Assembly: GCF_016907535.1 (NCBI RefSeq)
Contig: NZ_JAFBCF010000001.1
Location: forward strand, 2,480,001 to 2,544,000
DNA from: Microlunatus panaciterrae
GTDB taxonomy: Bacteria; Actinomycetota; Actinomycetes; Propionibacteriales; Propionibacteriaceae
Length of the DNA stretch: 64,000 nt
Reading direction: 5' to 3'
A model generated the notes under the pieces. The model was given only the letters and a program-made list of their open reading frames with translations, ran no database searches and was not told the DNA's origin. The position numbers were made by a program, and so were the translations under genes. The stretch's first letter is position 1. Each line of letters begins with the position of its first letter. This document shows, in pieces, positions 4,418 through 23,682 of this stretch.

Positions 4418-5689
4418 ATGACCGATATGCCCCATGTCGTCGTGCTCGGCGCCGGTTTCGCCGGCATCGCCGCCACCAGGAAGCTGGCCAAGGCGGGCTT
4501 CCGGGTGACGGTCATCGACCGGCACCCGTACAACACGTTCCAGCCGTTGCTGTACCAGGTGGCCACCGGCGGCCTCAACCCCGGAGACGTCACCTACTCG
4601 CTCAGGTTCTTCGCTGCCCGGAAGAAGGGCGTGAAGTTCCGGCGCGCGGACGTCGTCGGGATCGACCACGAGAACCAGGCCGTCATCTGTGCCGACGGCG
4701 TCAACGTCAGCTTCGACTACCTGATCATCGGTACCGGTGTGACCACGAACCATTTCGGCATTCCCGGAGCCGCCGAGTACACGATGTCGATGTACACGCG
4801 GGCCGAGGCGATCAAGGTCCGGGACACGATCTACGGCGGGATGGAGGCGCTGGCCGCACGGAGGGACCCGGGGTCGCGCGGCTTCACCGTGCTGGTGGTC
4901 GGCGGGGGAGCCACCGGCGTCGAGATGGCCGGGTCCCTGGCCGAGATGCGGTCGGCCATCCCCAAGCTCTTCCCGGAAATCGACCGCGCCAAGGTGCATG
5001 TGATCCTGGTGGAGATGGCGCCGCATCTGCTGGCACCCTTCGACGCCAAACTGCGTGACTACACCCGCAAGGAACTGATCAACAAGGGCGTCGAGGTGCG
5101 GCTGAACACCGCCATAGCCGAGGTGCATGCCGATCATGTCGACCTGAAGAACGGGCAGACGCTGCCCGCCGACCTGGTCATCTGGGCGGCCGGCATCGGT
5201 GGCTACACGCAGATCAAGGAGTGGGGCCTGCCGATCGGACGCGGTGGCCGGATCGAGACCGGGACCGACCTCAGGGTGGTCGGTCAGCAGCGGATCTTCG
5301 CGGTCGGCGACGCGGCGGTGAGCAACGACGACCCGCTGCCGCAGCTGGCGCAGCCCGCGATCCAGGGCGGCGAGCATGCGGTGGCGCAGATCATCCGGCT
5401 GGAACGCGGAGAGCCGACCATGCCCTTCCACTACCACGACAAGGGAACGATGGCGACGATCGGCAACCAGGCGGCGGTGCTGCAGCTGCCCATCGGCGTC
5501 AAGATGAAGGGAACGCTGGCGTGGATCGGCTGGATCGTGCTGCACATCTACACCTTGCTGGGCGGCCGGAACCGGGTGCAGACCTTCATCAACCTGGCCT
5601 GGCGCTACCTGTCCTGGCCGCGCGATGTCGGCTCCATCGTCGGGGACATCGCCAAGACCCCCGCCATGAAGGCGATCGAGAACGACTGA
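4418..5689 (+). CDS. ndh: Type II NADH:quinone oxidoreductase (NAD(P)/FAD-dependent)
   Basis: A 423-aa single-subunit flavoprotein that should oxidise NADH and reduce quinone at the inner face of the membrane without pumping protons. Two Rossmann motifs are visible: GAGFAG (11-16, FAD) and GGGATG (162-167, NADH). YNTFQPLLYQVATG (38-51) and the late AVGDAA FAD-contact are typical of NDH-2. A hydrophobic C-terminal stretch (LAWIGWIVLHIYTLLG) and a cationic tail suggest membrane association. ATG 4418 is preceded by a clear GGGAGG ribosome-binding site at 4404-4409. Confidence 0.9.
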   Translation: MTDMPHVVVLGAGFAGIAATRKLAKAGFRVTVIDRHPYNTFQPLLYQVATGGLNPGDVTYSLRFFAARKKGVKFRRADVVGIDHENQAVICADGVNVSFDYLIIGTGVTTNHFGIPGAAEYTMSMYTRAEAIKVRDTIYGGMEALAARRDPGSRGFTVLVVGGGATGVEMAGSLAEMRSAIPKLFPEIDRAKVHVILVEMAPHLLAPFDAKLRDYTRKELINKGVEVRLNTAIAEVHADHVDLKNGQTLPADLVIWAAGIGGYTQIKEWGLPIGRGGRIETGTDLRVVGQQRIFAVGDAAVSNDDPLPQLAQPAIQGGEHAVAQIIRLERGEPTMPFHYHDKGTMATIGNQAAVLQLPIGVKMKGTLAWIGWIVLHIYTLLGGRNRVQTFINLAWRYLSWPRDVGSIVGDIAKTPAMKAIEND

Positions 5690-5732
5690 CCTGATGTGGG
5701 CGCGCCGAGCGCGGAGGATAGAGGTGGATCGG

Positions 5733-5806
5733 TGGCCAGGGCCGGGCTCGAACCGGCGACCTTTCACTTTTCAGGCGAACGCTGCTACCAACTGAGCTAC
5801 CTGGCC
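5733..5806 (-). tRNA. tRNA-Phe (GAA)
   Basis: A cloverleaf on the minus strand: acceptor GGCCAGG/CCTGGCC, anticodon loop CTGAAAA giving GAA (5772-5770), and a T-arm with GGTTCGAGCCC. The D-stem has one C-C mismatch. CCA is not encoded. A minus-strand TAGATT (5825-5820) lies 13 nt upstream and could be its own promoter, because a terminator separates it from tRNA-Asp. Confidence 0.97.
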
Positions 5807-5844
5807 GTGTCCTGAGCCCAATCTACGACTGGGTCACCGAACAC

Positions 5845-5879
5845 AAAAACGGCGATGCCGGCGTGATGCTGCATCACCG
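5845..5879 (-). terminator. Intrinsic terminator after tRNA-Asp
   Basis: On the minus strand CGGTGATGC (5879-5871) can pair with GCATCGCCG (5858-5850), nine pairs including one G-U, followed directly by TTTTT (5849-5845). It lies six nt downstream of the tRNA-Asp 3' end and upstream of tRNA-Phe. Confidence 0.7.
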
Positions 5880-5885
5880 CTCTCG

Positions 5886-5959
5886 CGACCCCGACGGGAC
5901 TCGAACCCGCGACCTCCGCCGTGACAGGGCGGCGCGCTAACCAACTGCGCTACGGGGCC
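5886..5959 (-). tRNA. tRNA-Asp (GTC)
   Basis: A minus-strand cloverleaf: acceptor GGCCCCG/CGGGGTC, anticodon arm CCGCC-CTGTCAC-GGCGG giving anticodon GTC (5925-5923), T-arm GCGGG-TTCGAGT-CCCGT, discriminator G. CCA is not encoded. Confidence 0.97.
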
Positions 5960-6017
5960 CTAAGACTGCTAGGACCATCTGGTCTTGCCTACTGCTCGCA
6001 CTTAACGTGCCCGCGAA

Positions 6018-6046
6018 ACTATAGCGCAGTTACCGCCAACCTTAAA
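6018..6046 (-). promoter_or_regulatory. Promoter for tRNA-Asp
   Basis: On the minus strand TTTAAG (6046-6041), a 17-nt spacer and TATAGT (6023-6018) lie about 59 nt upstream of the tRNA-Asp 5' end. The rest of 5960-6235 holds nothing else recognisable except a TAGTTA at about 6141 that may serve the next gene. Confidence 0.5.
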
Positions 6047-6235
6047 ATTCGTCTGCGGCGCGCTTTCGACCCGCTGGCGACCGCGTCACTGCCGCTCCCA
6101 CCTGCCTTTTTGCCCGTTGTTCACCTGCCGGCAACTGGATAGTTAGCCACACGAATCGTGGGGCTGGAAGGTTCGTTGCTGGCCGCTTCGGGGAGGCCTC
6201 CACCCAGTGTGCACTCATCCCCAGAAGAAGGTCGA

Positions 6236-9025
6236 ATGAAGAAGAAGCTCAGCAGGAGCCTGCTGGCCGTCACGGCGATCGGGGTCGCAGCGACCGCCTC
6301 GTTGTCGATGGTGGTCGGGGCCACCGCGGACAGCAACGCGCCCCTCGGGACGAACCTGGTCGGTCGGCAGGCCGACGGTTCGGTGCTCGTACCGGAGGGG
6401 AAGTACGTCAAGCCGCTCGGCACGACGATCGAACAGAGCGGCCAGGTGATGGACCTCGCGATCCGTCCCGACGGCCGCACGGCCGTCGACCTCACCAAGT
6501 CGGGCAAGGGTCTGTTCACCGTTGTCGACCTGGTGAACAACACGGTGCTCCAGCAGTACACGCCCCCGAAGGGCACCGGCAGCGGCAATGTCGCGGTCGG
6601 TGGCCTGCTCTACTCCGCCGACGGCACTCAGCTGTGGGCGGCCCAGGCGAAGAACCTCCTGCGTTTCGACGTCGCTGCTGACGGGACGCTGAGCAATCCC
6701 GTCGTCGTCAAGCTCCCGGACAGCGCGCCCGGGGGAGTACCCAAGGGCCCCGACGGGTCGCTGGCGCAGCCGCTGCCGAGTGGACTCGCCTGGGCCCCGG
6801 ACCAGAAGACGATCATCGCCTCGCTGTCGGGCTACGACACCGTGGTCGGGATCGACTCGACGAGCGGTGCGACCTCCTGGCAGACGGCAGTCGGTATCGC
6901 TCCGCGCGATGTCGTTGTGGTCGGCAACCGCGTCCTGGTCAGCAACGAGGGCGGCCGCCGAACCAAGTCGTCCGACTTCACCAACTACTCCTACAACTCC
7001 CGGGTGGTCGCCGACCGCCGAGACGGCCGCGCCGACTCGGGTACGGTCAGTGAGCTGGATCTCAGCTCACACGCCGTCGTTCGCACCTACGACGTCGGCC
7101 TCGACCCCTCGGCCCTGATGGTGCGCGGCAGCGACGTCCTGGTCACGAACTCCAGTGACGACACCGTCTCCGTTCTGAACACCGCCACCGGCGAGGTCGC
7201 ACGCACCTTCAACGTCAACCCGATCCCGGGTCAGCCGTACGGCAGTTCGCCTAACGCGTTGGCGATGATCGACGACGACCACCTCGCGGTCAGTCTCGGT
7301 CGCAACAACGCGCTGGCGATCTATGAGCTGGCTGGCACCCGCAGTACCCCGGCTTTCGCCGGGTTGGTCCCGACGGCGTGGTATCCCGGCAAGATCATCG
7401 TGGACCGGCAGCTCGGCAAGATCGTCGTCGGGAACCTCAAGGGCGTGGGCGCACTCGGTGACCCGCGGACCATCGCCGAAGGCCCCGGCACCGAACCGGC
7501 GACCGGAAGGCAGGTGTACTCCGATGTGGGTGTCGTCCAGCTGCTCGATCCGCCGAAGGCGGAGGACATGGCCAGCCTCACCAGCCAGGTGTTCTCCAAC
7601 AACCAATGGCACAATCTCGAGGCACGCAACGAGAAGGCGGGCACGACCAAGGCGAGGCCGGTCCCGGTGCCGGAGCGGATCGGTGACCCGTCGCCGATCA
7701 AGCACGTGTTCCTGATCGTCCGGGAGAACCGGACCTACGACCAGGTGCTCGGCGACGACCCTCGCGGCAACGGGGATCCGACTCTGACCCAGTTCGGCCG
7801 CAAGATCACCCCGAACACCCATGCCCTGGCTGGGGAGTTCCCGCTGATCGACAACCTCTACTCCGACGGCACCAACTCCGCGACCGGGCACACCTGGCTC
7901 GATGCCGGGTTCGTCAACGACTACCTGGAACGCTCCTACGCCAACTACGTCCGCAACTACGGCCAGCCCGACGCCATGGTCTACCCGAGGTCAGGCTTCC
8001 TGTGGGACAACGCCCTGGCGCACCGACTGAAGGCGAGAGTGTGGGGGGAGTACGCCGAGTGGTTCACCGGAGCCGATGGTTCAGCCGCGACCGGGAGCTG
8101 GTCCGACTGGTACCGCGACTCACAGATCCTGGAGGGCAAGCGGACGGGTCAACCGCATGTGCCGCTGGGAACCTTCACCACGAAGACAGACGTGCCGTCA
8201 TTGGCCAGCATCCTCGACCGGGACTACCCCAACTTCAACACCAAGATCCCCGACCAGTACCGGGCCGACCTGTTCCTGAACGACTTCGACGAGATGACGA
8301 AGAAGGACTCGCTGCCCAACCTGAACATGCTCTGGCTGTCCAGCAACCACACCAACGGCTCGTCGCCGGGATACCCGACGCCGGCAGCGATGCAGGCCGA
8401 CAGTGATCTTGCGGTGGGTCGGATCGTGGACAAGATCTCCCACTCCAAGTATTGGAAGAGCAGTGCGATCTTCGTGATCGAGGACGACTCCCAGAACGGT
8501 GTCGACCACGTCGACGGACATCGCAACGTGCCCCTGGTGATCAGCCCCTATGCCAGGCGCGGCGCGGTGGTCCACACCAGCTATACCCAGGTCAACGTCA
8601 CCAGGACCATCGAGCAGATCCTCGGCCTGCCGCCGATGAACCAGGTCGACCTGGCCGCTCAGCCGATGTACGACGTCTTCACCACCAGGCGCAACCTGAC
8701 GCCGTACACCAAGCTGGACAACACCGTGCCACTCGACACGATGAACCCCACGCTGGCACAGGCGGACAGCACCATGCAGAAGACCTGGATCGCCTGGTCC
8801 GAGCAGCAGGACTTCACCAAGGTTGACCAGCTCGCCTTCGAGCCCTTCAACCGGCTCACCTGGTATACCTCGAACCACTTCACCAAGCCGTACCCGGGCG
8901 ACGCGAAGGTGATGACGCCGCAGGAGGTGTTGGCGAAGTTCCCGCAGGCCGCCGTCAGCCATGACCCGGACGGCAAGCTGCCGGAGACGAAGGCGCTGCG
9001 CCCGCACAGCGCAGGTAGCCGATGA
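6236..9025 (+). CDS. Secreted YncE-like beta-propeller / alkaline phosphatase-type phosphoesterase fusion
   Basis: A 929-aa exported protein. A signal peptide (KKKLSRSLLAVTAIG, Ala-rich to about residue 31) precedes a YncE-like propeller region (about 40-450, with repeats such as GYDTVVGIDSTSGATSWQ and SSDDTVSVLNTATGEV). The C-terminal half is a phosphoesterase: IKHVFLIVRENRTYD near 487, TGHTWLDAGFVNDYLERSY near 550, and a VEDDSQNG/DHVDGHR metal-binding region. Homologues are annotated as bifunctional YncE/alkaline phosphatase family; the substrate is unknown. ATG 6236 follows GAAGAAGG. The stop overlaps the next start (ATGA), so it heads a four-gene operon with an ABC exporter and a lipoprotein. 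Confidence 0.9.
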   Translation: MKKKLSRSLLAVTAIGVAATASLSMVVGATADSNAPLGTNLVGRQADGSVLVPEGKYVKPLGTTIEQSGQVMDLAIRPDGRTAVDLTKSGKGLFTVVDLVNNTVLQQYTPPKGTGSGNVAVGGLLYSADGTQLWAAQAKNLLRFDVAADGTLSNPVVVKLPDSAPGGVPKGPDGSLAQPLPSGLAWAPDQKTIIASLSGYDTVVGIDSTSGATSWQTAVGIAPRDVVVVGNRVLVSNEGGRRTKSSDFTNYSYNSRVVADRRDGRADSGTVSELDLSSHAVVRTYDVGLDPSALMVRGSDVLVTNSSDDTVSVLNTATGEVARTFNVNPIPGQPYGSSPNALAMIDDDHLAVSLGRNNALAIYELAGTRSTPAFAGLVPTAWYPGKIIVDRQLGKIVVGNLKGVGALGDPRTIAEGPGTEPATGRQVYSDVGVVQLLDPPKAEDMASLTSQVFSNNQWHNLEARNEKAGTTKARPVPVPERIGDPSPIKHVFLIVRENRTYDQVLGDDPRGNGDPTLTQFGRKITPNTHALAGEFPLIDNLYSDGTNSATGHTWLDAGFVNDYLERSYANYVRNYGQPDAMVYPRSGFLWDNALAHRLKARVWGEYAEWFTGADGSAATGSWSDWYRDSQILEGKRTGQPHVPLGTFTTKTDVPSLASILDRDYPNFNTKIPDQYRADLFLNDFDEMTKKDSLPNLNMLWLSSNHTNGSSPGYPTPAAMQADSDLAVGRIVDKISHSKYWKSSAIFVIEDDSQNGVDHVDGHRNVPLVISPYARRGAVVHTSYTQVNVTRTIEQILGLPPMNQVDLAAQPMYDVFTTRRNLTPYTKLDNTVPLDTMNPTLAQADSTMQKTWIAWSEQQDFTKVDQLAFEPFNRLTWYTSNHFTKPYPGDAKVMTPQEVLAKFPQAAVSHDPDGKLPETKALRPHSAGSR

Positions 9026-15791: not shown

Positions 15792-17132
15792 TCAGTTGAG
15801 AACCGTGATGTGGACGTGGTTCTTGTGGTTGGCCGAGTCGCCACCACGGTCGGCCATGAACCGCCATCCCTCGTCGGCACGCTTCACATTCCAGATGTGC
15901 TGGTTCCAGATCACGTACTCGATGTTGAGCTGGCTCTGGTTGGCCTGCGCCCAGGCTGCGATCCTGCCACCCAGCGCCTTCCCCGACGCTGACTGGTAGT
16001 TGGGGAGCATGATGTCCAGCGCCTTGCCGGACGGATGGTCCGGGATCGCGTCCGGTCGCACGCCATAGAAGGTCGTCACCTGCGGGAACGCCGCATGCGC
16101 TGCGAACAGCACCCTCTTGGTCGTGGGTCGCAGGGTCGCCAACCCGGAGCCTCCGATACTGCCGGTCGAGGGCGCAGGCGGGGAGGCCGCCGGTCTGCTG
16201 GTCGACAGGTACTGCGCTGTCACCCAGCGGACGGCATTGTTGTAGATGACCTGGGCCCGACCGTTCTGAGTCACCCCGGTGATGGACAGCCGTGTCCCCC
16301 GAGGCACCTCGCCGAGAACCTTGTGATTGGTCCCCGAAGCGCTGCGGATGTCGAGCGGCGCTGTGGCGTACCGCGTGCCGGTGACCCTTGGCAGCGCCGG
16401 TGTTGTGGGCCGGGTCGCTCCCGCAGTGGACAGGTACTTGGCCGTCACCCAGCGGACCGCGTTGTTGTAGATGATCTGGGCCCTGCCGTTCTGGGTGGCC
16501 CCGGTGATCGAGACCTGTCCGCCCTTCTTGATCTCGGTGACCACCTTGAAGTCCTCGTCCGCGGTGGTGCGGACCATCAGGTCGGCTGTGGCGGTACGGG
16601 TGCCAGTGATCTCGGGCAGGCCTCTGGTCGAACTGGCCAGGTACTGGGTGGTCACCCAGCGCCGGCTGTTGGCATAGACGATCTCGCTGAAACCACGGGA
16701 GTACTTGCCGGTCAGCTTGACGATGGAGCCGGTCCCGATGACCCCGACGACCTTGCCCTGCAGGCTCGGGCCGGTGCGGACGTTCAGCCGCGCCGTGGTG
16801 ATCTTGGTGCTGGCCGTGTTGATCTTGACTGGAGCAACCGGTGCTCCCTTGCCGCTCCTGGTCAGGTAGCGGCTGGAGATATAGGCGGTCGAGCCGTTGA
16901 AGCGCACCTTCGTCCAGCCGCTCTTGGTGGTGCTGATCGCGGGGATGGACTGGCCGCGATACAGACCTCCCACGATGGGCTTGTTCGTGCCCGGCCCCGA
17001 TCGAATGTTCACCCCCTCAACGGCGGTGACAGTGGACTCAGCCGATGCCGGCGTCCCCGTAAGACCAACGATTAAGCCCGCAGAGGCGGCAAGGCCGATG
17101 ACGGCCCTGGCTCTGCGTATGGCGATGTTCAC
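15792..17132 (-). CDS. Secreted protein with four SH3 repeats and a C-terminal peptidase-like domain
   Basis: A 446-aa exported protein. A signal peptide ends near ASA (about 31). Four bacterial SH3 repeats follow (about 35-92, 108-166, 178-236, 246-306), each with a NIRSGPG / NVRTGPS / MVRTTAD / DIRSASG start and a (K/R)WV(T/S)xxYL end. The C-terminal domain (about 325-446: HPSGKALDIMLPNYQ, YVIWNQHIWNV, HKNHVHITVLN) has the His/Asp pattern of D-Ala-D-Ala-peptidase-like domains. It is probably a cell-wall-binding hydrolase. The start is GTG 17132 behind GAGGAGG. A 30-bp palindrome lies about 190 nt upstream. Confidence 0.9.
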   Translation of the reverse strand: MNIAIRRARAVIGLAASAGLIVGLTGTPASAESTVTAVEGVNIRSGPGTNKPIVGGLYRGQSIPAISTTKSGWTKVRFNGSTAYISSRYLTRSGKGAPVAPVKINTASTKITTARLNVRTGPSLQGKVVGVIGTGSIVKLTGKYSRGFSEIVYANSRRWVTTQYLASSTRGLPEITGTRTATADLMVRTTADEDFKVVTEIKKGGQVSITGATQNGRAQIIYNNAVRWVTAKYLSTAGATRPTTPALPRVTGTRYATAPLDIRSASGTNHKVLGEVPRGTRLSITGVTQNGRAQVIYNNAVRWVTAQYLSTSRPAASPPAPSTGSIGGSGLATLRPTTKRVLFAAHAAFPQVTTFYGVRPDAIPDHPSGKALDIMLPNYQSASGKALGGRIAAWAQANQSQLNIEYVIWNQHIWNVKRADEGWRFMADRGGDSANHKNHVHITVLN

Positions 17133-17496: not shown

Positions 17497-17853
17497 ATGG
17501 CCATCGAGCTGGGTGCCGACGAGTTCGAGCAGCTCGTCCTGGAGGCGATGGACCAGGTCCCCGACGAACTGGCCACACTCGTCGACAACTGCGTGATCCT
17601 GGTGGAGGACTATCCGCCGCCGGAGCAGCCGCCCGACACGCTCGGGTTCTACGACGGCATACCGCTGACCGAACGGGGTGGATGGTATGGCGGTGTGCTG
17701 CCGGATCGCATCTACATCTTCCGGCACCCGACGCTCGCCATCTGCGACAGCCGCGAACAGGTGACGCGGGAAGTGCGCATCACCGTCGTGCACGAGATCG
17801 CCCACCACTTCGGCGTCAGCGATGCCCGACTTCACGAGCTCGGCTACGGCTGA
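17497..17853 (+). CDS. Minimal zincin-like metallopeptidase family protein
   Basis: A 118-aa protein with HEIAHHFG (about residues 98-105), the HExxH zinc site; a downstream Asp/His (SDARLHELGYG) probably completes the site. The N-terminal region (DEFEQLVLEAMDQVPDEL, NCVILVEDYPP) and length match the small actinobacterial metallopeptidase family PF06262. The substrate is unknown. No signal peptide is seen, so it is cytosolic. No ribosome-binding site precedes ATG, and it is probably coupled to the leader ORF. Confidence 0.9.
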   Translation: MAIELGADEFEQLVLEAMDQVPDELATLVDNCVILVEDYPPPEQPPDTLGFYDGIPLTERGGWYGGVLPDRIYIFRHPTLAICDSREQVTREVRITVVHEIAHHFGVSDARLHELGYG

Positions 17854-19041: not shown

Positions 19042-19362
19042 TCAGCCGGCGACTACGTACGCGAGACCGCCGGCCGCGGCGAGCACGACGAGCACGGTGA
19101 CCAGCAGGTTCTGCCAGCCGTCGCCGATGAGCCGGTTGGCATGCAGCGAGGAGTGGGTGCGGCGATAGCGCCGGATCGAGAGCAGGCCCAGAGAGGCCGT
19201 GGTGACCACACCGGCGAGCACGATGAGCAGCGCCAGGGTGGTGGACACGTCGGCGACCAGGCGGGCGATCAGCAGTAGGCACCCCAGCACCGAGAGCGTG
19301 GTGCGTTGCCAGGCCAGTCGAGTGCGCTCGTTCTGCACGCCGGCATCCCAGGGTCGCTCCAT
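19042..19362 (-). CDS. DUF202-family small membrane protein
   Basis: A 106-aa protein. [17 protein letters not shown] matches the DUF202 signature (N-E-R-T-x-L-A-W-x-R-T). Three hydrophobic segments follow (about 19-40, 43-62, 85-105). Function is unknown. It lies 5 nt after another DUF202 gene on the same strand, a common tandem arrangement, so the two products may form a heteromeric membrane complex (inference). Confidence 0.9.
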
Positions 19363-19367
19363 GGCGT

Positions 19368-19757
19368 TCAGGACAGCAGAACGACGAACGCGATCAGGGC
19401 GACGATGGTCACTCCGACCGTGAGGAACGGCATCAACGGCGAGGAGGGGAGGGCCTGGTTGAGCCGGATGGCCCGCTCGTGGCGAGCCCAGCGGGTGAAT
19501 GCGCCGACCCCGGCCGCAAGCCCGCAGATCACCAGAACCAGCGAGGCGACGTGCACCTCCAGAGTCAACGAGTGGTTGAGCTGGGAGATGGCGGCGACCC
19601 CCACCCCTGCGGCCACCAGGGCCAGTGCGGTGCGGATCCAGGCGAGGAAGGTGCGTTCGTTGGCGAACGAAAACCGCGGGTCAGGCTCGTCGCCGACGCC
19701 GAAGACGTGCCGCGGCCAGCGCCTGTCGGTCTGGCCGGTCTCGCTGGAAGGGCTCAC
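19368..19757 (-). CDS. YidH-like DUF202 membrane protein
   Basis: A 129-aa protein. FSFANERTFLAWIRTALALVAAG is the classic YidH/DUF202 motif, followed by three membrane segments. The start is GTG 19757 (SPSSETGQTDRRWPRHVFG), supported by a minus-strand TAGCAT (19770-19765) ending 7 nt before it with no Shine-Dalgarno. It is the first gene of the DUF202 pair. Confidence 0.9.
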   Translation of the reverse strand: MSPSSETGQTDRRWPRHVFGVGDEPDPRFSFANERTFLAWIRTALALVAAGVGVAAISQLNHSLTLEVHVASLVLVICGLAAGVGAFTRWARHERAIRLNQALPSSPLMPFLTVGVTIVALIAFVVLLS

Positions 19758-19791
19758 CCGGCTGATGCTAGCGGGCAGCGCGCCGGTCCAG

Positions 19792-21468
19792 TCAGGTTGC
19801 CCGACCATGGTGGCCGACGAGCACGGGTACCCGTGGATGGTGGATGTCGCAGCGCGGTATCGACACGACCCGCGCGCGTCCGCGGTCGTCCTGCCGCGCG
19901 GGAGGGGGCGTCTCCGCTGCTGTGGTGATCTTCCGGGCGGCATGCCACACCGACTCGGCCAGGTGGTCGTTGCCGAGGTTGTGCGTTCCGGTGTGGTCGA
20001 CCAGATAGATCCAACCAGTCGGCGATCGCCAAAGGTACGCGCCGGGGCGCGGTTGTTGCAGCTGCCAGCGGCCATGGGTCTTGATGCGGTGGCTGAGCGT
20101 GGTCGTCAGGCCAGCGTTGCCGATCCGGGTCTGGCCGGGCGGTCCGCCGCGGTCCCTCGGCCGGTACGGAATGGTGTGGTCGATCTGTTTGCGACGGCCG
20201 GTGTGCGTGCTAAACGGGAAGATGTCGGCCGGGTTGCGGAGGAAGAGGTTGGTACGGAGACGCGCCGGGAACTCGTAGCCGTCGACGGGTGGGGCGTCGG
20301 CCAGGTCGATCACGGGCTGCAGGGTGATCTGGCAGTCGGAGCCGAGGAGCTCGCGCACCTGACCGAGGGTGATCGGTCCGGCATCCTCGAGTCGTGCGAC
20401 TCCGCCTCCGGCGAGCAGAGTGTCGCGATGCAGGTGGACATAGAGGGTGACGTTCCGCAGCCTCCGGAGCAGGTCCTGGGGGAGTGCTCTCACCAGCGCC
20501 GGCAGGTTGTCGGTCGAGGACGGTCCCTGAGCTGGACGGTCCTCCGCGTCATTGTCGCGGGGGTGCAGATCCCACTCGGACACGTGACGTCGGTCATCCC
20601 TGGCTTCGCTGGCCGCGGGAGTCTCATCGCTGACAGCCGTCAGGGCGACTGGCTGGTGTTCCTCGAGGTCGGCAGGTGGCTCGTGGCGGTCGGTGTAGTC
20701 GAGCAGCAGGGCAAGGGCCTGGGCGGGGTTGGCGAGGATGCCGATGGCCTTGGCGCGCCGGGTGTCGGCTGGGTCGGTGTCACCGTGCAGCTGCAGGATC
20801 TGCGCGATCCGGTCGGCCATGGCCACAAAGAGGATGACGTCGCCGGCGTTGGCCTTGGCGATGAGCACCTTGAGTCCGTGCTCGTTGGACTGTGTTGCGC
20901 GGACGAACCGGTCGGCGGCTTCCATGCGGGCGCGTGCCTCTGCCTGGTCGGGGTCGGCGGTGATGATGGTCGCCTCGACCAGGGTCTGGAACCGGCTCCA
21001 GGGCAACGCGTTGGCGTGGCCGGCGACCCGGGAGTCGACGTATGCGGCGGCGGCGGGACTGAGATGTCGGGTGTGCTGCGCGACCCAACGGGCTTGGTAG
21101 GCCCGGACCTGTCCGGCCTGCAGACGCTGCCAGAGCCGGGGGAGCCGGTGCCGAAGGTCCAAGGCGTCGGCGATCAACTTGCCGGCGGAGACGGCTCCCA
21201 TCTCCTGCAGGGCGCCCAGCTCGGCCGCGGCGAACTCAAGCACCTCCGGCGTGCTCTCCCCGCCGAAGGGGCGAGGATGTTCGCGACCTGGCAGCGCGGT
21301 GGCGACCTGCTGAGGATCGGGCTGGGCGTGCAGGTCGGCCCAGACCGCGGCGAGCTCCAGTTGGGCGGCCTCCGCGGCCACCAGCGCCCGGTAGGCGGTC
21401 CCGACCCTGGTGGCCAGGGTGGCGGTGTCCCACCCTTTGGCCGGTTCCGCTGTCGCCGCTTCGAACAT
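19792..21468 (-). CDS. DUF222 / HNH-endonuclease-type protein (13E12 repeat family)
   Basis: A 558-aa protein. The N-terminal DUF222 helical region (about 30-240; VRAYQARWVAQHTRHLSPAA is typical) is joined by a variable Asp/Pro-rich linker to a C-terminal HNH-like module (about 440-500: IDHTIPYRPR, RIGNAGLTTTLSHRIKTHG). The usual CRRHH core is replaced by TTTLSH, so nuclease activity may be weakened. Members occur in many copies in actinobacterial genomes and often behave like mobile genes. ATG follows a strong minus-strand TAATAT (21480-21475) by 6 nt, so it is leaderless. Confidence 0.9.
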   Translation of the reverse strand: MFEAATAEPAKGWDTATLATRVGTAYRALVAAEAAQLELAAVWADLHAQPDPQQVATALPGREHPRPFGGESTPEVLEFAAAELGALQEMGAVSAGKLIADALDLRHRLPRLWQRLQAGQVRAYQARWVAQHTRHLSPAAAAYVDSRVAGHANALPWSRFQTLVEATIITADPDQAEARARMEAADRFVRATQSNEHGLKVLIAKANAGDVILFVAMADRIAQILQLHGDTDPADTRRAKAIGILANPAQALALLLDYTDRHEPPADLEEHQPVALTAVSDETPAASEARDDRRHVSEWDLHPRDNDAEDRPAQGPSSTDNLPALVRALPQDLLRRLRNVTLYVHLHRDTLLAGGGVARLEDAGPITLGQVRELLGSDCQITLQPVIDLADAPPVDGYEFPARLRTNLFLRNPADIFPFSTHTGRRKQIDHTIPYRPRDRGGPPGQTRIGNAGLTTTLSHRIKTHGRWQLQQPRPGAYLWRSPTGWIYLVDHTGTHNLGNDHLAESVWHAARKITTAAETPPPARQDDRGRARVVSIPRCDIHHPRVPVLVGHHGRAT

Positions 21469-22496: not shown

Positions 22497-23225
22497 CTAT
22501 TCCGCCGAGCTGATGTCGTCGGTGTCCGAAGCCGAGGGAGCAGTGATGATGAAGCTGGTCGAGGCGGAGCTGACCCACCGCTCGCAGCTGCCGAGCATGT
22601 CAGGCGGCACGAAACTGGCCTGGAGGTCGGTGTGGCTGACCGGAACGCCACCAGTAGCCCCAGCGACAGGCCGCAGCACAGCGGCGTCCTCGCTGACGAC
22701 GGCCAGCAGCGGCATCGTCCTCCTGATCACGTTCACCTCCAGAGTCTTCAACACCTCCTCCGACATCGACGGTGCGCAGACCACCAACGGAGTCCTGCTC
22801 AAGATCAACTTCTCCAGTACGGGCAGCAGCTCGCGGATGGAGTCGACCCGGTCGGAGCAGATCAGCACCCGCGGCCGGTCCAACACCGACCACGAGGCGG
22901 CGGAGTCGGTGACGAAGGCCGGCGACGCATAACCAGCACCGATCCTGGTGGTGCTGGTCGCATCCAGCTGCTGCGTGATCTTCTGTCGCTGGCTCAGTGT
23001 CAGGGCGGTGGGCGGGGCATCGGCGGGTGGTCGCCGTGCCTGCAGCTCGGACAGGTAGTGCGGCGCCGGCGCGTCAGGGCGGAACTGCGGAATGACACGT
23101 TTGGGCGGAGCCAGCATCTCTGCCGCGGCGCGCCTGTTCCTGCCCCGGTCCGACAAGGCTCCGAAGACGATCACGGCGAGGCCGACCACCATGACGGCGA
23201 TCAGTCCGACGATCCACGGATCCAT
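22497..23225 (-). CDS. Membrane-anchored protein with a GroEL apical-domain-like region
   Basis: A 242-aa protein. One N-terminal membrane helix (about 4-24, then RGRNRR) and a Pro/Ala linker (about 30-80) precede residues 95-230, which align with the GroEL/Cpn60 apical domain. Matching segments are GYASPAFVTD (98-107), RELLPVLEKL (131-140), EEVLKTLEVNVIR (156-168), TGG (191-193) and LG (211-212). The family's KAPGFGDRRK loop is shortened. Equatorial ATPase and intermediate domains are absent, so it cannot work as a chaperonin. Most polypeptide-binding positions are hydrophobic as in GroEL. ATG 23225 follows a minus-strand AGGCTGAGG. It is divergent from a DUF1992 gene. Confidence 0.75.
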   Translation of the reverse strand: MDPWIVGLIAVMVVGLAVIVFGALSDRGRNRRAAAEMLAPPKRVIPQFRPDAPAPHYLSELQARRPPADAPPTALTLSQRQKITQQLDATSTTRIGAGYASPAFVTDSAASWSVLDRPRVLICSDRVDSIRELLPVLEKLILSRTPLVVCAPSMSEEVLKTLEVNVIRRTMPLLAVVSEDAAVLRPVAGATGGVPVSHTDLQASFVPPDMLGSCERWVSSASTSFIITAPSASDTDDISSAE

Positions 23226-23301
23226 GACCTCAGCCTGCCACAGCGTGGTCGGGTAGAGTTCGGGCCGTTGGCGCACTCGACTCCGAGGCGGTGTTGCGAC
23301 C

Positions 23302-23682
23302 ATGCCCCCTTTCGAATCCTGGATAGACCGACAGATCCGCGAGGCCCAGGAGCGAGGTGAGTTCGACAACCTGCCCGGCAGCGGGAAGCCGATCAAGGGA
23401 CTCGACGGCCGTCCTGACGAGAACTGGTGGGTCAAGGGCCTGATGGAGCGGGAGAAGATCTCCGCACCGCTGCCTGGCTCGCTCCTGCTACGCAAGGAGG
23501 TCGCCAACCTTCAGGAAGCCTTGGCGGAGGAACGATCGGAGGACACCGTGCGCGCCATCATCGAGAACCTGAACAGCCGGATCCGAGAGTCCCGGATCCG
23601 GGGCATCGACGGTCCGAACATCTTCATCAAGACCGTCGATGTGGAGCAGGCTGTGCAGACCTGGCGAGAGGGACGCGGCTAG
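23302..23682 (+). CDS. DUF1992 (DnaJ-family-domain) protein
   Basis: A 126-aa protein. PPFESWIDRQIREAQERGEF, LPGSGKPI and ENWWVK are the core of DUF1992, a domain shared with eukaryotic DNAJC28 that lacks the J-domain HPD motif. It is predicted helical and cytosolic; function is unknown. The 76-nt gap from the divergent GroEL-apical-like gene contains a plus-strand TAGAGT (23254-23259). Pairing with a chaperonin-derived neighbour is suggestive but unproven. Confidence 0.92.
   Translation: MPPFESWIDRQIREAQERGEFDNLPGSGKPIKGLDGRPDENWWVKGLMEREKISAPLPGSLLLRKEVANLQEALAEERSEDTVRAIIENLNSRIRESRIRGIDGPNIFIKTVDVEQAVQTWREGRG

Follow-up and report, generated by a model that had tools for sequence, protein, structure and literature searches.

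A stand-alone GroEL apical-domain homologue with a predicted membrane anchor in one family of Actinomycetes

The window analyzed here, a 64,000-nt stretch of the Microlunatus panaciterrae genome, carries on its minus strand a gene (22497..23225) for a stand-alone apical-domain protein (AP) of 242 aa plus stop, delimited by its open reading frame and by NCBIfam, phmmer and hhalign matches. The gene begins with an ATG at 23225 and ends with a stop codon at 22499–22497. In the ORF list, the frame stays open upstream as far as a TTG at 23507, but we retained the ATG as the start, since relatives share this Met and a -10-like box, CAGGCT (23232..23237, minus strand), lies 12 nt before it. We found that a TGGCANNCT-like box is positioned 12–13 nt upstream of the AP start codon in 26 of 33 regions (the window and relatives); scored as a [TC]ANNNT box starting at -15 to -10, it occurs in 26/33 AP upstream regions versus 5% at shifted positions. 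A Shine-Dalgarno-like word was present in 5 of the 33. Judging from this box spacing, mostly without a Shine-Dalgarno sequence, the AP mRNA is likely leaderless across the family. No complete HAIR- or CIRCE-type operator was seen in the 33 upstream regions of 80 nt each, where exact half sites of heat-shock operators appear once.

The N-terminus of AP is occupied by a membrane helix (residues 5–23; 23157..23213, minus strand) with a mean Kyte-Doolittle value of 2.91, next to which lies the basic stretch SDRGRNRR. All 30 orthologues read possess a hydrophobic helix within residues 1–25 and an excess of Lys and Arg on its C side; the 20 further members likewise all show a helix with a basic stretch after it, their start codons having been picked for the best helix. 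As the basic flank lies C-terminal to the helix, an N-out/C-in topology is predicted by the positive-inside rule, and the apical domain would thus face the cytoplasm. The helix is followed by a conserved linker (residues 26–74; 23004..23150, minus strand) with a PPxRxIPx...PxYL motif, in which P41, P46, P55 and Y57 are invariant among 28 AP sequences. Residues 75–230 (22536..23003, minus strand) are homologous to the GroEL apical domain by profile and alignment matches, and include the equivalents of helices H and I (22731..22835, minus strand), where R131, L134, L137, L159, T161, E163, V164 and N165 correspond to GroEL R231, L234, L237, L259, T261, V263, V264 and N265. In GroEL, these helices span residues 230–244 (H) and 256–271 (I) (excerpt of PMC1885994). 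The domain lacks the KAPGFGD loop of GroEL and ends with a family-specific segment of the DLQAGYVPxxxLGxxxxWVS type.

The initial annotation had described a membrane-anchored, stand-alone apical domain devoid of the ATPase and intermediate domains, and both statements are borne out by the homology at residues 75–230 and by the helix common to the orthologues. Eight NCBIfam GroEL models align AP residues 75–230 with GroEL 173–335 (best E 4.4e-19); the matches are limited to this interval, these residues gave no other match in the searches, and the equatorial ATPase and intermediate domains of GroEL are missing. A phmmer search against PDB yielded 64 distinct sequences (best E 4e-17), of which the 60 listed are all named GroEL, chaperonin or Hsp60, with one "glomalin"; a profile of the AP family again retrieved 64 sequences, 60 of them listed. 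Alignment of a 28-member AP family with 11 GroELs by hhalign gave a probability of 99.2 and an E-value of 5e-20 over residues 87–234. A Cpn60 match had been proposed as a check; it is significant with NCBIfam and hhalign, whereas Pfam PF00118, the model named in that proposal, gave E 0.063 and 12.4 bits, below its 34.3 cut-off. Similarly, none of the 14 members of AP alignment A5 reached E 0.01 with Pfam, while 14/14 scored E ≤0.001 with one of the NCBIfam GroEL models, and TIGR02348 scored AP at 61.6 bits, below its curated cut-off of 582.1. AP thus falls outside chaperonin 60 as these tests define it and shows a known domain in a new architecture; the fold of this domain is presumably that of the GroEL apical domain. 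A PF00118 search of the same genome revealed two ordinary GroEL genes, both located outside the window.

To describe the gene context, we looked at 32 loci drawn from the better-scoring members, in 30 of which AP could be placed. The next genes include one for a PF06262 zincin in 28/30 loci and one for an SH3 protein, likewise in 28/30. In the window, these are represented by a convergent zincin-like metallopeptidase gene (17497..17853, plus strand) and a gene for an SH3-repeat protein of the PF08239 type with a signal-like N-terminus (15792..17132, minus strand). DUF202-type genes follow AP in 15/30 loci as counted by clustering, a count looser than the 11 of those 15 loci with a recognizable DUF202 signature, because AP and DUF202 were merged through a read-through ORF in locus L049; in 7 of the 11 signature loci, DUF202 starts 76–130 nt past the AP stop codon. 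The L049 frame itself (5150–6274) is a single 375-aa ORF in which no stop codon separates AP from DUF202, on a metagenome contig with a coverage of 3.85, and is either a natural fusion or a sequence error. The window contains a pair of DUF202 membrane protein genes on the minus strand, one ORF at 19368..20075 (PF02656 at residues 134–202; its true start is probably later) and a second at 19042..19362, separated from AP by an EamA transporter gene and another ORF. This other ORF, of 558 aa (19792–21468, minus strand), has no Pfam match and presumably resembles DUF222/HNH-type repeat proteins. Divergent from AP lies a DJC28_CD/DUF1992 gene (PF09350; 23302–23682, plus strand), named after a DnaJ-like protein; it was rejected as a partner neighbor, being absent from the recurrent neighbors of AP. 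The zincin loci of 15 genomes picked as seemingly AP-less had no AP nearby; G003 and G027, which belong to this set, carry a divergent AP away from the usual locus. Synteny is thus kept in most loci examined but is not universal.

We determined that AP is present in 71 of 97 genomes of the bacterial family to which the window belongs, some of these genomes being incomplete. With the window protein as query, at least 44/97 genomes gave a match starting in the membrane helix; a 28-member profile (A1) then returned a short-frame, non-GroEL match in 28 of 53 re-searched genomes; the 28 include G138, which does not belong to the 97, and the re-search omitted G035, which does. In total, 50 AP proteins (30 + 20, including that of G138) were read, the rest being counted by match coordinates and frame length. 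Scanning the genomes of named species with a sequence pattern gave 35 matches, which resolved into 13 AP loci from Micropruina, Propionicicella, Propionibacterium, Desertihabitans, Avipropionibacterium, Aestuariimicrobium, Tessaracoccus and uncultured relatives, one of them titled only "Actinomycetes bacterium"; Propionicicella is assigned to Nocardioidaceae by NCBI, but grouped with the window in our genome set. Judging from these names, the group probably corresponds to Propionibacteriaceae as defined by GTDB. Nine divergent AP proteins (L155–L163) retain the membrane helix, and 8/9 the Asn equivalent to N265, although they are no longer scored by the GroEL profile.

Outside the family, AP did not turn up in 30 sister-family genomes for which all matches were listed, each match lying in a frame of at least 471 codons; these were the genomes richest in matches plus some from each family. 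An earlier pass over 97 sister-family genomes gave, among the matches listed, only GroEL-length frames. Across the phylum, no AP was found in 79 other genomes (80 were searched, including the window's own), the remaining short rows at contig edges being judged by position only. Three short frames were rejected as GroELs broken into several frames (G492), split over two frames (G544 C1) or cut by a contig end (G512). A class-wide search with the AP N-terminus alone gave matches in 11/296 genomes at E up to 0.01, two of which are known genus members; the nine others (E 0.001–0.009) were taken as chance, and the match in G398, which was inspected, belongs to a protein in which several weak matches to the helix occur. 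Eleven stretches of viral contigs fit the AP pattern, none of them a relative. By tblastn, phage and plasmid GroELs match AP (10 of 1138 plasmid and 10 of 26 phage records listed). The match in Bacteroides phage DAC16 was dismissed as an AP since it lies inside a GroEL-length CDS of 1623 nt, while the match on a Rhizobium plasmid has no listed gene beneath it.

The fast evolution of AP could suggest a decaying GroEL fragment or a chance ORF: in a tree built from apical domains only, AP forms one clade (support 99) whose branch measures 1.92 changes per site, as estimated by a quick method with long-branch warnings from 136 columns and 76 rows, including 18 of the 30 AP proteins read. Yet, we consider such an origin practically negligible and reject it in view of the presence of AP in 71/97 genomes with the same architecture, the recurrent synteny and promoter spacing, and dN/dS values well under 1, i.e., 0.14–0.44 in nine of ten pairs and 0.71 in the tenth (pairs picked by hand, three of which share the same sequences). 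The AP coding sequence is under purifying selection. As for its descent from one of the two GroELs of the family, the apical-only tree gives AP no placement among GroELs.

The initial annotation had reported that six of the eight GroEL substrate-binding residues are kept, a call which proved letter-for-letter correct against E. coli K-12 GroEL (Y199=Y, Y203=A, F204=F, L234=L, L237=L, L259=L, V263=E, V264=V). Its meaning shifts, since the departures at 203 and 263 turned out to be family-wide. Position 203 holds an aromatic or large hydrophobic residue in 0/30 AP proteins, and position 263 is Glu in 16, Ala in 10, Arg in 2, Ile in 1 and Val in 1; with Ala counted as lost, the hydrophobic residue is gone in 30/30 and 28/30, respectively. 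Position 199 retains a large hydrophobic residue in 24/30, and V264 is replaced by Ala in 9/30. We ranked 138 apical columns, each filled in at least 24/30 AP sequences, and found N265 to be the most conserved, followed in a tie by R231, L234, T261, G198 and V214. The eight classic sites rank 107 (Y199), 91 (Y203), 7 (F204), 5 (L234), 37 (L237), 87 (L259), 53 (V263) and 31 (V264). The N265 equivalent is kept in 30/30 sequences (49/50 when all proteins read are counted), and those of R231, L234 and T261 in 29/30 each. In the 20 further members, the alignment of which is less certain, L234 is replaced by Gln in 6 and V264 by Ala in 15, and V263 is large and hydrophobic in 13. GroEL R197 has a role in ring contacts; its equivalent is not Arg in any of the 29 listed of 30 AP proteins.

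Read against GroEL mutant and contact data, this pattern suggests a groove that is kept and a client-binding rim that is partly lost. In GroEL, the GroES loop makes contact with L234, L237 and V264, and the N265A mutation blocks GroES binding but not substrate binding (both from the available portion of PMC3514286); the H/I groove is where small peptides bind, and a hydrophilic change at any of the hydrophobic sites abolishes polypeptide binding (both from an excerpt of PMC1885994, which cites Fenton 1994 for the latter). Retention of R231, L234, T261 and N265 alongside the changes at 203 and 263 would point to a docking site for specific peptides or loops rather than to promiscuous holding. 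This split between groove and rim is blurred by the fact that, in Fenton's 1994 work, the same residues were reportedly also needed for GroES binding.

On sequence grounds, we consider AP more likely to be a docking module that faces the cytoplasm and binds particular peptides or loops without ATP than to be a promiscuous holdase. According to this proposal, the apical domain of a GroEL would have become a separate gene in one Propionibacteriales lineage; it carries a signal-anchor helix, which would hold the protein in the membrane with its apical domain in the cytoplasm. Devoid of ATPase, hinge and ring, AP could bind only passively, its H/I groove being retained to dock a loop or an extended peptide that belongs to one partner or a few, whereas the rim used by GroEL for unfolded chains would now be partly polar or small. 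The ligand might be the adjacently encoded DUF202 membrane proteins or a protein delivered to them. We assign a probability of roughly 0.45 to AP being such a tethered domain, acting as a membrane adaptor or a selective holdase. Against the docking proposal, the eight classic sites as a set are not the most conserved part of AP, the conservation of F204, L234 or G198 could reflect a place in the domain core, 15/30 loci have no adjoining DUF202 gene, and L234, V263 and V264 drift in the 20 further members.

The same observations leave room for the fold having been re-used without groove function, to serve a DUF202 membrane complex structurally or in protein-protein contacts; the conserved residues would then belong to the core, or to an interface newly formed around the DLQAGYVP...WVS end. 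The adjoining DUF202 genes and this C-terminal motif would agree with it (Gly and Trp in 28/30 each, Leu and Pro in 26/30 of AP sequences not selected by motif; that DLQ.G.VP never varies among the 13 named loci is no evidence, since these were found by that motif), as would a precedent, the Fab1_TCP domain of PIKFYVE, which is most like the CCT3 apical domain (excerpt of PMC2846930). We nevertheless hold it to be somewhat unlikely, given that the helix H/I equivalents of N265, R231, L234 and T261 all rank within the top six columns by conservation. A natural minichaperone, i.e., a promiscuous, ATP-independent holdase that prevents nascent or unfolded chains from aggregating close to the membrane, comparable with the artificial GroEL 191–345 fragments, appears unlikely. 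The AP boundaries almost coincide with those of working minichaperones (191–345; GrAD 190–333; excerpt of PMC9138447), six of the eight binding residues are present in the window protein and position 199 is mostly large and hydrophobic; yet, the loss at 203 (no aromatic or large hydrophobic residue in 30) and at 263 (Ile or Val in just 2/30), the absence of a complete HAIR- or CIRCE-type operator from the 33 upstream regions and the limitation of AP to one bacterial family among those searched all speak against general holding. The earlier view of AP as a tethered peptide-binding module is supported as regards a natural, ATPase-free and conserved family, but less so as regards a general minichaperone. 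It is also conceivable, if decidedly improbable, that AP is an inner-membrane receptor for the mobile loop of GroES (Cpn10) or a mimic of it, a reading suggested by the groove keeping L234, L237, V264 (or Ala) and N265 while the rim is partly given up; if true, AP would bring the co-chaperonin, or a client bearing such a loop, to the inner membrane or keep it sequestered there. Whatever its ligand under the favored reading or the alternatives, AP would be an apical-domain protein that occurs on its own in nature, of which we found no example in the literature searched, a search covering few subscription papers. Its lineage offers a natural experiment on which apical residues are selected once ATP, ring and cavity are gone, and its split between groove and rim would make co-chaperonin docking and the binding of unfolded chains directly testable apart.

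Among known systems, AP shares with GroEL (Cpn60, PF00118, TIGR02348) the apical domain, including the FVTD, LLPVLEK and TLxVN motifs. In contrast to GroEL, it has no equatorial and intermediate domains, hence no ATP site, has a membrane helix but no KAPGFGD loop, and is encoded by a separate gene beside two normal GroELs. It also differs from the phage and plasmid GroELs, since those inspected or annotated are GroEL-length genes. Like AP, Fab1_TCP of PIKFYVE/Fab1 kinases is a natural chaperonin apical-type domain outside a chaperonin, but it is CCT3-like (Group II), eukaryotic and part of a large lipid kinase (as described in the accessible part of PMC2846930). The isolated GroEL apical domain is familiar as a laboratory construct, and AP residues 75–230 correspond to an isolated domain of ~145–185 residues, whereas the full hydrophobic polypeptide-binding face is not retained, positions 203 and 263 being replaced family-wide. 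The ends of the domain are near-identical to those of the minichaperones GroEL 191–345, GroEL 191–376 and T. thermophilus GrAD 190–333, and a minichaperone of nearly these limits aids refolding without ATP in vitro; yet, such constructs are engineered, soluble and keep the substrate-binding surface of GroEL (PMC9138447, available in part), while AP is natural and equipped with a membrane helix.
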